Below are positions 18,073 through 23,375 of a DNA stretch of 46,587 bases, piece by piece. Every line of letters starts with the position of its first letter. Within the stretch, counting starts at the first letter, position 1. The notes beneath the pieces are model-generated. The model had not been told where the DNA came from. It did no database searches and was given only the letters and a program-made list of their open reading frames with translations. Source of the DNA: Pseudobdellovibrionaceae bacterium. Its GTDB lineage: Bacteria; Bdellovibrionota; Bdellovibrionia; Bdellovibrionales; Bdellovibrionaceae. The stretch is taken from positions 1-46,587 of the forward strand of contig JABWCN010000035.1 of NCBI GenBank assembly GCA_013359135.1, given 5' to 3'. A program made the position numbers and the translations under genes.

Positions 18073-19347
18073 CTATTTTTTTAACCATTGAGTATATTCT
18101 TTAATATTTTTTTCAAAACCATGATCCGTTGGTTCATAGAAATCGTTTTCAAGAGTTATTTCTTTGGGTAGATAATGTTGTTTGACCCAGGATTTTGGAA
18201 AATCATGAGGGTAATGATAGGTTTCTTTTCCCAGTGGTTGAGCGCCTGATCGTAGGTGGCTTGGAACTTCAAAGTGAGGGTGATTTGTTAAAAATAATTT
18301 GGCTTTTTTTAAGGCTAGATACGAACGATTTGATTTGGGACAAGAACAAAGATAAGTTACTACTTGTGCAAGTGTTATTTCACCTTCTGGTAAACCTATA
18401 AGCTCCAAAGCCTGGAGTCCATTAATTGCTATATTCAATGCCCTTGGGTCAGCATTTCCTATATCTTCGGAAGCTAGAATTACCAAGCGTCGAGCAATAA
18501 ATAGAGGATCTTCTCCTGAAGACAGCATTTTAACCATATACAAAAGGGCAGCATTAGAGTCACTGCCACGAATACTTTTAATGAAAGCTGATATGTGATC
18601 GTAGTGCTGATCAGAGTGTTTGTCATAAAAAAGAACAGGAGAAGTGGTTATTTTTTCTATATCTTCAAGGCTGAACGAACTGTTAACATCTGAGTGGTAA
18701 AGCATCTCTAGTGTGTTATAAAGCTGTCTTACATCTCCATTCACATTTTTGATAAGTTTCTCTAAGACGGTATTATTTAAAAAGGACTCGGGAGTCATTT
18801 TTAAATAAGTACAAGCTTTGAGATAAAGTTTATATAAAATATCTTCAGTTAGTTTGTGGAATTGTATGATACGACACCGGCTAAGAATAGCTTTATTTAA
18901 TTCATAGAAAGGATTTTCTGTTGTCGCACCTACAAAGCAAAGATCACCACTTTCAATAAAAGGTAGTAAAACATCTTGCTGTGCCTTATTAAGGCGATGA
19001 ATTTCATCAATAAAAAGAATAGTCTTTTTCTGATAAATTTTTCGTCTATTGCGACCATCTTCGCCTAATTGTTTAATCTCCTTGCTGCCCGTTTCTACAG
19101 CATTAATTTTTATAAATGTAAATTGACTCTGATTTTCCAAAAGCCTTGAAAAGGAAGTTTTGCCCGTTCCAGGGGGGCCCCAAAGAAGTAAGTTAGGAAG
19201 AAAGGATTTTGATAACCAGTTTTCAATTGGAAGAACTTTGGGTGTTGTTATGCCAGTTTCAAAAAACTCTTTAAAGCTCTTAGGTCTGAGTTCTTCGGAA
19301 AGAGGTCTGGCTAGTTCATCATTATGACTGCTATTAAATAAGTCCAT
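18073..19347 (-). CDS. rarA: RarA/MgsA, replication-associated recombination AAA+ ATPase
   Basis: A 424-aa protein of the clamp-loader-related RarA family. The N-terminus ARPLSEELRPKSFKEFF is typical. The AAA+ core has Walker A GPPGTGKTSF, Walker B FIDEIHRLNKAQQD and sensor 1 GATTENPFYELNKAILSRC. The C-terminal tetramerisation region has SGEDPLFIARRLVILASEDIG and GLPEGEITLAQVVTYL. It acts at stalled or gapped replication forks. The SD and ATG lie in a hairpin (see 19342-19374). It stands alone, downstream of the GNAT gene. Confidence 0.94.
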   Translation of the reverse strand: MDLFNSSHNDELARPLSEELRPKSFKEFFETGITTPKVLPIENWLSKSFLPNLLLWGPPGTGKTSFSRLLENQSQFTFIKINAVETGSKEIKQLGEDGRNRRKIYQKKTILFIDEIHRLNKAQQDVLLPFIESGDLCFVGATTENPFYELNKAILSRCRIIQFHKLTEDILYKLYLKACTYLKMTPESFLNNTVLEKLIKNVNGDVRQLYNTLEMLYHSDVNSSFSLEDIEKITTSPVLFYDKHSDQHYDHISAFIKSIRGSDSNAALLYMVKMLSSGEDPLFIARRLVILASEDIGNADPRALNIAINGLQALELIGLPEGEITLAQVVTYLCSCPKSNRSYLALKKAKLFLTNHPHFEVPSHLRSGAQPLGKETYHYPHDFPKSWVKQHYLPKEITLENDFYEPTDHGFEKNIKEYTQWLKK

Positions 19348-19403: not shown

Positions 19404-20123
19404 CTACAGGGTAGTTACACTTGGCTGTATTTGGTAATCTTGGCTCAATGAGGTACGAAAGTTATGTTCGTGACTGTGGTTAATTTGTTTTAGACTTTTT
19501 TTGAACTCTTCAATTTGTTGAGCTCCTTTTTTGTAGGGAGGATTTGCATACTTTAAAAACGTGATATGGTCATTAAAGTTAGATGCAAAACGGTCACTCA
19601 CACCTGGTATTTTTTCGTAGTCAGTGTAATCTAAAAAAAACTTAGCTTGTTTGGTACAATTCCCAGCACTTCCTATAATAGTCATTTCTGAACGATTCCA
19701 TACATTTTCAATCAAAGCCATTGATGCGTACATAAGCGTTCTACCTAGGTTAAGTTTTCTAACTCTAGAATCAATCATTAGTCTGTTTATCTCTAGAATT
19801 TTTTCTGGAGTAGTATTTAATAATTTAATCAAAGAATTATAATCATCATAGCCTAATACTGATAATGCCACTGTTTTTCCTGATGGGGGAGTGACTCTAA
19901 CGGTTCCTAATATTTCTTCTCCTGCAGTGGCGATAATATGATAGCTTTCAAAATCGGTATACTGTATGTCGCCAAAATCGCTGCCTAATTGACTAAAATT
20001 TTGCCTGAATCCAGAATCAAAAAGGACATAGCTCCTGAAAAGACAAATCTTTTGTAGCAAACTGGCATTCACTTCATTGCCTTTGAAGTAGTGCCATCTT
20101 AGTTGGCTAAGTGAGAATTCCAT
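19404..20123 (-). CDS. GNAT-fold acyltransferase related to FeeM/LuxI-type synthases
   Basis: A 239-aa protein. FRSYVLFDSGFRQNF near the N-terminus, then YHIIATAGEEILGTVRVTPP, then EINRLMIDSRVRKLNLGRTLMY, correspond to the beta-strand/pyrophosphate-loop layout of the N-acyl amino-acid synthase (FeeM) and autoinducer-synthase branch of the GNAT superfamily. The R/Q-x-x-G-x-A loop is replaced by R-K-L-N-L-G-R-T. The substrate is unknown. The start lies 25 nt inside the preceding diiron-protein gene, so the two are almost certainly co-translated and act in one pathway. Confidence 0.75.
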   Translation of the reverse strand: MEFSLSQLRWHYFKGNEVNASLLQKICLFRSYVLFDSGFRQNFSQLGSDFGDIQYTDFESYHIIATAGEEILGTVRVTPPSGKTVALSVLGYDDYNSLIKLLNTTPEKILEINRLMIDSRVRKLNLGRTLMYASMALIENVWNRSEMTIIGSAGNCTKQAKFFLDYTDYEKIPGVSDRFASNFNDHITFLKYANPPYKKGAQQIEEFKKSLKQINHSHEHNFRTSLSQDYQIQPSVTTL

Positions 20124-20857
20124 TGAGTTCTTTCTAGAAGGGAGTGGCTTATTTTGATACAGTGATTTAGAAAACCAGCATAGATTGTTAAAGCATCAGA
20201 TCCAGTTTTTACCATTTCAGATAGGCTTGCTTTGGCAGCCAAACACTTTTCCATCAAATCTATATTAAATTTAGTATGTCCTTGATCTAGTAGAACATGT
20301 TCAGCTAAGAAGCTGATTCCTGGTTCAAAGTCATCACCCAGTATAAATAAAAGATTGTCAATCATTCTGGGGCCATAAACTACAGAAATTCTTTCAATTT
20401 CAAATTCAATAGCAGTTTGGCAATAGGGATGTTGACTGTTAATCACATTTTCGTGAAGGTCTACGTAATATTGAGTTTCAGGTAAAGTTCCAATTTTAAA
20501 AAGATCATTTAGAGTCAGCGTATCATTGTAAACTTTATTCCACTTTTCAATAAGGAAATTCACATCGGTAACTAACATTTTATCATGATCAGCTTCTTGC
20601 TTAGAATGGTACTGTAGTTTTTCGCCGACTTCAGTGAAGTTTTTATTAGTGCAATTTTCTCCTGCACGTTTAATCCAGTCTTCCACTCGTTCTGTCATTT
20701 GAATACTCATAGCTGTCCAAACTAACAGAAAGGCATGGAGTTTCTTAGGATCACTTTCTGTCATAAAGTAATTTATCCCAGAGCTCTTTAAAAACGAGAC
20801 TCTTGTAGAGTGTATTTGTTGATTGTATTTTTTAAAATCTTCTGAATCTTTTTTCAT
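20099..20857 (-). CDS. Haem-oxygenase-like diiron (HDO/TENA-PqqC fold) protein
   Basis: A 252-aa all-helical protein. Metal-ligand candidates match the haem-oxygenase-like diiron oxidases (UndA, SznF, CADD): E88-x-x-H91 in the helix YHSKQEADHDK, E151/E155 in AIEFEIERISVVYG, and H187-x3-D191-x2-H194 in EHVLLDQGHTKFN. Such enzymes activate O2 to oxidise amino acids, fatty acids or cofactor precursors. The start has a good ribosome-binding site (TAGGAGA). It overlaps the GNAT gene by 25 nt. The metal content and reaction are inferred from motif spacing only. Confidence 0.78.
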   Translation of the reverse strand: MKKDSEDFKKYNQQIHSTRVSFLKSSGINYFMTESDPKKLHAFLLVWTAMSIQMTERVEDWIKRAGENCTNKNFTEVGEKLQYHSKQEADHDKMLVTDVNFLIEKWNKVYNDTLTLNDLFKIGTLPETQYYVDLHENVINSQHPYCQTAIEFEIERISVVYGPRMIDNLLFILGDDFEPGISFLAEHVLLDQGHTKFNIDLMEKCLAAKASLSEMVKTGSDALTIYAGFLNHCIKISHSLLERTQWNSHLAN

Positions 20858-21027
20858 GGGTTCTCCTATTTTTTAAACTATGTTAGTAGAATGGTTGATT
20901 TAATAAAAGTAAAAAGGAGTTTATAAATTAAAGCAATCTACTTTGTATAATACGCGTAGTCAGGTCGAAATTGAAGAAAGGATATCAATTGATTTTTAAG
21001 GTAAAACTAATTTTATGTTAAGTGTGT

Positions 21028-22404
21028 TTAAACTCTAGGCATTAATATTTTTATAAGAGTGCCTTGAGTATCAGGAGAAAATTTTGATTTAGGATAGCTT
21101 TCAATAGTTAAAGAACCATTCATGTCTAACAAAAACTTATGTGCTAATGGAAGACCTAAACCTGAGCCTTTTTCTCCTGAAGTTCCAAGGGTTGTTGTGC
21201 GCTCATTCCAGTTAAAAAGCTTAGGAATCTTTTCTGAATCAATTCCACATCCCCAATCTCTAATATTAAAAATAACTGAATCTTTAGTGCATGAAAGTTT
21301 TAGCTCTATTTTTGAGTTTGGTACTGAAAACTTAATTGCATTAGTTAGAAAATTAGCAATTACCTGAAAAATAAAAATGTCTTTATCAACTTTTATTTTA
21401 ATTGAATCTTCAGATGTTTCTTTCTCTATAGAAATTGAAATGTTTTTACTCTTTGCAATATCAAGAATAAAGCTTTTAGCTTCCTCTAAAGTTTCAATCG
21501 CCTCAATATCTATAGGATTAGTCTTTATTTTTCCATCAATGGAAAACTTAACAACATCTCTTAAGTTAGTAAAAATTCTTTGTAAGTTAAGAGAATTTTT
21601 TTTAAGTGTTGCGATTTTAGCATCTGTAAAGTCTTCTGGTTTATTGTGCAGTTTTGATATAAAGGAAATATTTTGTATGGGGTTAGCTAAATCATGAGAT
21701 AATGCAAAAAATACTGTTTCTATGATTTTTTTTGATTCTAAAAGCTCGTTATTTTTTTTCTCTCGCTCGGATACAGCTACCCAGCTATTAATAAAAATCC
21801 CTGAATATGGTATAAGAAATAGAATAAGCTTTAAGCTTGTCAAATTATGCGGTTGTATGGGGGCAATCTTGGGTCCTAAGTTATAATCTAGAACAATGAG
21901 GATGATGTACATTAAAAGTGGGATAAATACTGAAATGATTATTTTGATATACTCCTTAGTCGAAAAATAAACAAAAGGGAAAATAGCTCCCAATAGTAAA
22001 GAGGCTGAAATAAATGTTGATTCCCCCAAATAAAAGCCACAGTATGCGACAAGTAAGCACCCAATAGATGCAGTACTTAGTCTAGACAAGTTAGTCCATC
22101 CAAGAGCATTAAATCCAAGAGAACTAAGCAGAAAACAAAAACCTGAGATGATTAATCCGTTACCAAGATGGGTGTCATCGAAGAAGATGTAAAAGGTGAA
22201 TCCCAAAAGTAGGTCTAGGAAAAAGAAAAACAAGCCATTAGTATTAGCTTGCCTAACGTAAATCTCATCTGTCTTTGAAACTTTATTAGTTCCGAGTTTA
22301 ACCAGATGAGAGAAAAAAATAAAAACTCTTTTTTTTGCTAGTGATGACATTCCTACATTGTCTATCGGAAGGAATTTGAAAAAAAGAGAAATAAATTTAG
22401 TCAT
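21028..22404 (-). CDS. Membrane sensor histidine kinase
   Basis: A 458-aa kinase. Six to seven hydrophobic segments occupy about residues 55-210 (GLFFFFLDLLLGFTFYIFF, GLIISGFCFLLSSLGF, SIGCLLVAYCGFYLG, IIISVFIPLLMYIILIVL and others), with no large extracytoplasmic domain. The kinase core has H237 (FFALSHDLANPIQN), N box VIANFLTNAIKFS, and G boxes RDWGCGID and GSGLGLPLA. It lacks a receiver domain and no response regulator is adjacent. The input is therefore probably membrane-borne or hydrophobic. No ribosome-binding site is visible. It lies on the same strand as, and 170 nt upstream of, the diiron-protein gene. Confidence 0.88.
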   Translation of the reverse strand: MTKFISLFFKFLPIDNVGMSSLAKKRVFIFFSHLVKLGTNKVSKTDEIYVRQANTNGLFFFFLDLLLGFTFYIFFDDTHLGNGLIISGFCFLLSSLGFNALGWTNLSRLSTASIGCLLVAYCGFYLGESTFISASLLLGAIFPFVYFSTKEYIKIIISVFIPLLMYIILIVLDYNLGPKIAPIQPHNLTSLKLILFLIPYSGIFINSWVAVSEREKKNNELLESKKIIETVFFALSHDLANPIQNISFISKLHNKPEDFTDAKIATLKKNSLNLQRIFTNLRDVVKFSIDGKIKTNPIDIEAIETLEEAKSFILDIAKSKNISISIEKETSEDSIKIKVDKDIFIFQVIANFLTNAIKFSVPNSKIELKLSCTKDSVIFNIRDWGCGIDSEKIPKLFNWNERTTTLGTSGEKGSGLGLPLAHKFLLDMNGSLTIESYPKSKFSPDTQGTLIKILMPRV

Positions 22405-22511: not shown

Positions 22512-23375
22512 GTGGCTGAATTAAACAATGAGACAAAGACAGAAGTTAAGACTGATATTGAGACAAAGATTAAGAAGGAAGAAAATTTCAACAGTCGCAA
22601 CTCGAGTAAAGATTCGTTTTTAACAATACTTAAAAAGAACGATTACACAGTTACTAAAGATCCATATATGGAGGTTCTTGATGATCCTAGTTTACCGTTG
22701 CTGCGAAGATTAGAGGTTATTATGGCTTTAGATAAAGTTAATAAACAGTATGGAGTTTATCAGAGTTTTATTAAAGGATTTGAGAGGTTTTTTAATAAAA
22801 AATATATCTCATCAGAAAAGGTTTCTTTATTTGAGGTCGGGAGTGGCTTGGGAGGGCTATCAAGAGAGATCGAATTTTGGGGAAGAAAGCGTGGAGTCTC
22901 TTTCGATTTGAATTTATATGATACTCAAGAGGATGTATTACAAGTGGCTGAAGAGTTGCTGGCTAGTCAAGGTGTTAATGTAGCAAAGCATATTGCTTCA
23001 GGAAATTACTTGCAGGACTATGCAGATAACAGCTTCGATTATGTAATTTCGTTACATGTGATTCATCATATTAGACCGGTAAATGAGGCCGCGAAAGCTT
23101 TGAAAGAAATGATGAGAATTGCGAAAAAAGGAGTTTATGTTGTAGATTTTCATAAAAAGTGGGGATCTGTCACTTTATTCAAAGTTTGGAATAGCCTATT
23201 TGGTATCAACCAAGATTTAAGTGAAGATGGTATAAAAAGCATGCAAAGAGCATATAGTCCTGAAGAACTGGAGCGATTAATTCATAATGAAGATCCATCA
23301 TTAGCCAATCAGTTGCATTTTAAAAGTCATTTTTTGAAACCTTATTGGGAGTTCGAGTTTGTTAAAAAAGAGTAA
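22512..23375 (+). CDS. Class I SAM-dependent methyltransferase
   Basis: A 287-aa protein with a GTG start after a GGAGGA ribosome-binding site. The first ~35 residues are charged (Lys/Glu/Thr). Motif I is LFEVGSGLGGL (residues 106-114), motif II NLYDTQEDVL, and the post-I/motif IV region is DNSFDYVISLHVIHHI. This is the small-molecule (UbiE/Methyltransf_11) type, with the acceptor unknown. It is divergent from the histidine kinase and its last 34 nt overlap, on the opposite strand, the end of the TlpA-like gene. Confidence 0.85.
   Translation: MAELNNETKTEVKTDIETKIKKEENFNSRNSSKDSFLTILKKNDYTVTKDPYMEVLDDPSLPLLRRLEVIMALDKVNKQYGVYQSFIKGFERFFNKKYISSEKVSLFEVGSGLGGLSREIEFWGRKRGVSFDLNLYDTQEDVLQVAEELLASQGVNVAKHIASGNYLQDYADNSFDYVISLHVIHHIRPVNEAAKALKEMMRIAKKGVYVVDFHKKWGSVTLFKVWNSLFGINQDLSEDGIKSMQRAYSPEELERLIHNEDPSLANQLHFKSHFLKPYWEFEFVKKE

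Follow-up and report, generated by a model that had tools for sequence, protein, structure and literature searches.

What do two overlapping genes in a Pseudobdellovibrionaceae genome make together, and might the cell use the product as a signal? The genes lie on a 46,587-nt stretch of DNA (GenBank assembly GCA_013359135.1, contig JABWCN010000035.1), here called the window; it forms contig C76 in a genome of 3.84 Mb (G000). A sequence-only reading of the window had assigned one gene product to the haem-oxygenase-like diiron oxidases (HDOs) and the other to the GNAT acyltransferases, and had proposed an oxidised and N-acylated amine or amino acid, possibly a signal, as their product. To our knowledge, no autoinducer synthase has been established for Bdellovibrio-like predators, and we know of no characterised pathway that pairs a FeeM/LuxI-like GNAT with an HDO. 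Our own search, outside of which lay most of the subscription literature, found no paper treating the two together. The analysis described here suggests, with slightly more confidence than doubt on our part, that the genes belong to a three-gene module in which a two-enzyme synthase would produce an oxidised N-acyl amide signal and a dedicated kinase would serve as its receptor.

Results and Discussion

Gene organization of the locus

Both open reading frames described by the sequence-only reading were present on the minus strand, overlapping by 25 nt (Table 1), and the same 25-nt overlap occurs in an orthologous locus from another genus (L004; HDO 1461-2219, GNAT 733-1485). The overlap likely reflects translational coupling of the two genes. 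A separate promoter is possible in the gap between the kinase and HDO genes; a sigma-70 promoter scan of this gap returned no convincing site and no excess over shuffled sequence. A homologous contig was found in a MAG from the same taxonomic order, the Bdellovibrionales. Divergent from the kinase gene lies a class I methyltransferase gene (22512-23375), which found no counterpart when the other five genomes from the genus were compared and does not accompany the trio elsewhere.

Table 1. Positions of the kinase-HDO-GNAT genes and flanking features in the window
Feature	Position	Strand	Length	Description
rarA-like gene	18073..19347	(-)		Replication-associated ATPase, named by eye; conserved chromosomal flank, outside the module
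GNAT gene	19404..20123	(-)	239 aa	ORF, 20123->19404; putative FeeM/LuxI-like N-acyltransferase
HDO 3' end / GNAT 5' end overlap	20099..20123	(-)	25 nt	Exact
HDO-like gene	20099..20857	(-)	252 aa	ORF, 20857->20099; predicted haem-oxygenase-like diiron oxidase/oxygenase
Kinase-HDO intergenic gap	20858..21027		170 bp	
Membrane histidine kinase gene	21028..22404	(-)	458 aa	Upstream of the HDO gene; assigned from HATPase_c match, TM scan and synteny

The oxidase

The HDO-like protein carries the motifs E88xxH91 and H187xxxD191xxH194, as had been claimed for it. When it was aligned with 12 relatives that are 14-53% identical to it, the few invariant columns included E88, H91, E155, H187, D191, and H194. 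Since the motif residues are invariant across relatives as divergent as these, they are not there by chance. The six residues are predicted to form the 3H/3C metal-ligand set of the haem-oxygenase-like diiron oxidases. This ligand set is the one described for the HDO superfamily, whose characterised members oxidise amino acids or fatty acids using O2 and belong mostly to natural-product pathways (PMC13108848).

In a Pfam search, the window HDO scored 15.0 bits against PF14518, which is under the cut-off of 28.9. We therefore based its assignment on profile-profile comparison, on its relatives, and on the ligand motif. Comparison of the window subfamily profile with PF14518-type HDOs (hhalign) gave a probability of 99.0% and an E value of 5.9e-18, and an orthologue (L037) scored over the cut-off of DUF3050 (26.8 versus 22.2 bits), a family that we take to be a member of the haem-oxygenase clan. 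A broad profile of HDO relatives matched PDB entry 3DDE (1.5e-33), the mangotoxin HDO MboA (9YPI; 1.2e-12), and pABA synthases. Searches of the PDB with single sequences or with narrow subfamily profiles gave nothing significant; it took broader profiles to connect the two proteins with known HDOs and GNATs. Taken with the invariant ligands, the PF14518 and DUF3050 profile matches support the UndA/SznF-like diiron-oxidase family to which the protein had been assigned. The AlphaFold model of the HDO (two-sequence alignment) was all-helical with a mean pLDDT of 46, and that of the GNAT (single sequence) had a pLDDT of 32. Both models were too poor to confirm the folds, a check that the sequence-only reading had called for, so the two folds rest on sequence evidence.

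The acyltransferase

The sequence-only reading had likened the GNAT to N-acyl amino-acid or autoinducer synthases, and profile searches support a FeeM-type assignment. In the Pfam search, the window GNAT scored 21.5 bits against FeeM (PF21926), under the cut-off of 27, and its orthologues L004 and L037 (53-57% identity) passed at 28.1 and 28.5 bits. The GNAT profile matched FeeM-type proteins with a probability of 92.5% (E 5e-7; hhalign). PF00765, the LuxI autoinducer synthase family, gave no match to the window GNAT at E<=1. Residues R30, R76, E111, and R114 are invariant in the orthologues. E111, which 4 orthologues have without exception, falls on the EIS motif when PilZ-FeeM proteins are aligned with it, and is a candidate counterpart of the catalytic Glu (E95 in FeeM, E103 in Nas354). 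FeeM-type GNATs acylate amino acids, though what they do physiologically is described as unclear (PMC4897644).

These family assignments bear on a reading in which the locus serves the membrane, the GNAT being an OlsB-like aminolipid N-acyltransferase, the HDO a lipid hydroxylase, and the kinase a sensor of membrane state. Acetyltransf_5 (PF13444), which presumably also covers OlsB, does match the GNATs, and HDO genes elsewhere in the phylum adjoin genes that look acyltransferase-like by eye. However, Acetyltransf_5 is a poorer fit than FeeM to the window GNAT as well as to L004 and L037, and no PlsC-type O-acyltransferase, i.e., no counterpart of the OlsA partner in the ornithine-lipid system OlsBA, is conserved at the trio loci. 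We regard an aminolipid function as improbable.

The phylum shows an expansion of FeeM-type proteins about 410-450 aa long, with up to nine matches in one genome (G230) among the matches listed. The window genome also has a FeeM-type gene at G000:C70:28147 (L061 3995-5299), which adjoins a methyltransferase gene weakly similar to that at 22512-23375 of the window.

The sensor kinase

The gene upstream of the HDO gene was missed by the sequence-only reading, and we consider it the strongest clue to function. Judging by its domains, its product is a histidine kinase. HATPase_c matched over its cut-off (71.6 bits, 8.9e-20; Pfam), while the HisKA match was weak (15.0 bits versus a cut-off of 26.9) and the His box, SHDLANP, was read directly. 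A TM scan of the N-terminus found a multi-TM sensor domain with 5-6 hydrophobic segments at residues about 50-215. No solved relative of this domain was found in the PDB, and no response regulator adjoins the trio.

Strong matches to the N-terminal domain occur in only four of 369 genomes of the phylum (G000, G217, G230, and G046), and in the first three of these the kinase gene flanks the HDO gene, in tandem or divergent orientation. The fourth (L051 5608-6963) is a solo kinase that shares the layout and 46% identity with that of the window but has no HDO or GNAT gene beside it; it is possibly an eavesdropper or a remnant. Since a kinase of the same layout occurs there apart from the enzymes, such kinases may sense something else, or may eavesdrop.

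Distribution of the trio

In G033, the kinase, HDO, and GNAT genes occur in the same order as in the window, a contig end removing the N-terminus of the kinase. G217 has the HDO and GNAT genes with the kinase divergent, and G230 has an HDO gene with a divergent kinase, after which the contig ends (L002 and G230:C124 are one contig and were counted once). These three genes are the only close neighbors common to the compared loci. Absence of linkage in all relatives was the outcome that the sequence-only reading had named as counting against the pair. We found the two genes linked wherever both were assessable, i.e., in G000, G033, and G217, and in G062 with a different HDO.

Synteny of the block up to rarA extends to G063, G061, and G062, but in all three the trio is missing from beside rarA, which makes it an accessory module within the genus. 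The rarA flank carries different genes in genus members, and this gives some room to the idea that the proximity is incidental, with unrelated functions sharing a hot spot for accessory genes. Against this, the same three genes occur as a group in three families, where their flanks differ and two orientations are seen, the overlap of the enzyme genes is kept in L004, and HDO and FeeM genes lie close together far above expectation (see below). Incidental proximity therefore seems to us very improbable.

Elsewhere in G062 lies a GNAT gene, split by a contig break, whose product is 60% identical to that of the window. A different HDO (16% identical, over the PF14518 cut-off with 37 bits) is encoded before it, and a different multi-TM kinase after it. 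This one case, inferred across two contig ends, suggests that oxidase and sensor were replaced together. No relatives were found on plasmids or viral contigs.

Oxidase-acyltransferase pairs elsewhere in the phylum

Pairing was also counted with window-type loci excluded, using the 150 best PF14518 places and the 150 best FeeM places in 369 genomes. Among these best 150 of each, HDO and FeeM genes lay within 1.5 kb of each other in at least four genomes, versus 0.07 expected (Poisson about 1e-6, a value that is indicative only, since placement was modelled as uniform and window-type loci were excluded), and within 3 kb in at least five.

Several such pairs stand beside a second kind of transducer. 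In G360, G200, G039, G316, and G202, the gene next to the HDO-FeeM pair encodes a protein whose N-terminal domain is common to these loci and which also has an adenylyl/guanylyl cyclase domain and, in most cases, a GAF domain. PilZ, FeeM, the shared N-terminal domain, GAF, and cyclase form one polypeptide of 1157 aa in G097, with an HDO-like gene at the end. In G096 and G100, a long protein combines FeeM and the shared N-terminal domain and is followed by an HDO-like gene; the cyclase domain is confirmed for the G097 fusion, and the fusion in G096 and G100 is known for the N-terminal domain and FeeM. G295 has this N-terminal domain as well, there as part of a histidine kinase whose gene diverges from an HDO gene. 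The HDO-like protein of G097 is without the Asp of HxxxDxxH and so is perhaps not a diiron enzyme of the normal kind. The Asp is lost from the HDO motif at L073.

Among 18 further HDO loci, about six have CADD-like genes, some of them adjoining folate genes. Among 11 others, a GNAT or GNAT-like gene is adjacent in L106, L107, L109, L111, and L112, and in L108 one lies at a distance of 1.5 kb; the majority of these GNAT assignments score below the Pfam cut-off. By eye, the acyltransferases of L106-L108 have VR.TPP-like and E[IF][SN]R signatures in common with the window GNAT. A rule that an HDO always stands next to a GNAT was ruled out, as several HDOs are CADD-like or lie in other clusters.

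Other arrangements of HDO genes were observed as well. At L109 (4249-6611) and L112 (4029-6554), the HDO and GNAT-like genes lie downstream of a putative SAM-dependent protein, a further HDO-GNAT arrangement. A 226-aa protein that looks GNAT-like by eye adjoins an HDO in G009 (L110 5070-6428) and is fused to a related HDO in G217 (L035 6913-8280); profile comparison was not significant for either the split or the fused form, and the protein was left without a family assignment. At L026 (3536-6679), an HDO that is 37% identical to that of the window is encoded directly upstream of genes that by eye are cytochrome P450-like and OafA-like acyltransferase genes. In L029, L030, L031, L033, and L036, the HDO gene belongs to a conserved cluster in which, by eye, we recognized KAS III, SDR, alpha/beta hydrolase, hexapeptide acyltransferase-like, ACP, acyl-CoA dehydrogenase-like, and biotin carboxylase-like genes. 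The set has the look of a natural-product cluster of the fatty-acyl kind.

Proposed function

In the mechanism that we propose, the GNAT would take a fatty acyl group from acyl-ACP or acyl-CoA and attach it to an amino acid or amine. Either before or after this step, the diiron HDO would carry out an O2-dependent oxidation of the amino-acid part or, with lower likelihood, of the acyl part. The oxidised N-acyl amide would be a diffusible signal, and the neighboring multi-TM histidine kinase would read it. We infer that both enzymes are catalytically active and work on one molecule, and that this product is the signal and the kinase its receptor; a single product of both enzymes, an oxidised N-acyl amide, is the most economical reading. 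The product is read as a signal because there are two outputs, kinase and cyclase, because one sensor domain is common to both, and because a synthase is fused to a cyclase. Likewise, the earlier suggestion that the product is possibly a signal gains support from the sensor kinase or adenylyl cyclase that repeatedly neighbors such pairs. Since the kinase-HDO-GNAT set recurs in related genomes, it probably represents an undescribed way to make and sense a chemical signal. Counting against this proposal are the solo kinase of G046, the pairs that have no transducer close by, the want of a response regulator beside the trio, and the Asp lost from the HDO-like protein of G097.

Conceivably, the pair makes a metabolite other than a signal, for instance an oxidised N-acyl amino acid that serves as an antibiotic, a surfactant, or a metal chelator, and the kinase senses an outside cue and only regulates the pathway. 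FeeM-type synthases do yield N-acyltyrosine surfactants and antibiotics (PMC4897644), known HDOs act mostly in natural-product pathways (PMC13108848), and the HDO-acyltransferase pairs at L106, L107, and L111 have no transducer nearby. However, two kinds of transducer recur beside such pairs, one of them fused to the synthase, and no other gene, e.g., for a transporter, is conserved with the trio. We consider a non-signal product unlikely, albeit a serious contender.

If the signaling module is real, it would bring a new signal chemistry together with a candidate receptor, and would suggest what FeeM-type synthases do, as well as some members of the HDO superfamily, which is large and uncharacterised. 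More tentatively, and with somewhat more doubt than confidence, we suggest that the Bdellovibrionota have an undescribed class of cell-cell signaling, in which a GNAT-diiron oxidase pair would make an oxidised N-acyl amino-acid signal for interchangeable transducers, i.e., the multi-TM kinase, or a cyclase or kinase that carries the shared N-terminal sensor. In some lineages synthase and cyclase would be fused, and in others solo kinases would act as eavesdroppers.

Comparison with known systems

Each of the two enzyme families is known, and it is their combination with dedicated transducers that appears to be new. The window HDO shares with the HDOs of PF14518 (UndA, CADD/pABA synthase, MboA, AetD, and SznF) the 3H/3C pattern ExxH...E...HxxxDxxH and a predicted all-helical fold, but its subfamily is divergent (15 bits versus 28.9) and is paired with a LuxI/FeeM-like GNAT. 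SznF presumably has an extra Glu at the position seven before its equivalent of E88, whereas the window HDO has L81 there and thus no acidic residue. The window GNAT resembles the FeeM-type synthases, including the PilZ-containing Nas343 and Nas354 (PMC4897644), in its VRxTPP and EINRL motifs and in having orthologues over the Pfam cut-off; unlike Nas343 and Nas354, it is without a PilZ domain, and its gene overlaps an oxidase gene. With the LuxI-type synthases it shares a LuxI-like N-terminal half, the PDB profile matches to LasI and other AHL synthases being weak and non-significant, and it differs from them in being without a PF00765 match and in having an oxidase and a kinase in place of a LuxR partner. 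No adjacent LuxR-type regulator was conserved among the trio loci or found among the neighbors that were read. Kinases of the CqsS/LqsS type, which function in quorum sensing, are multi-TM proteins encoded beside the gene for a PLP-enzyme signal synthase. At the window locus, a GNAT and an HDO take the place of the PLP enzyme, and the likeness is one of layout: a multi-TM sensor followed by a kinase, encoded beside a putative signal synthase gene.
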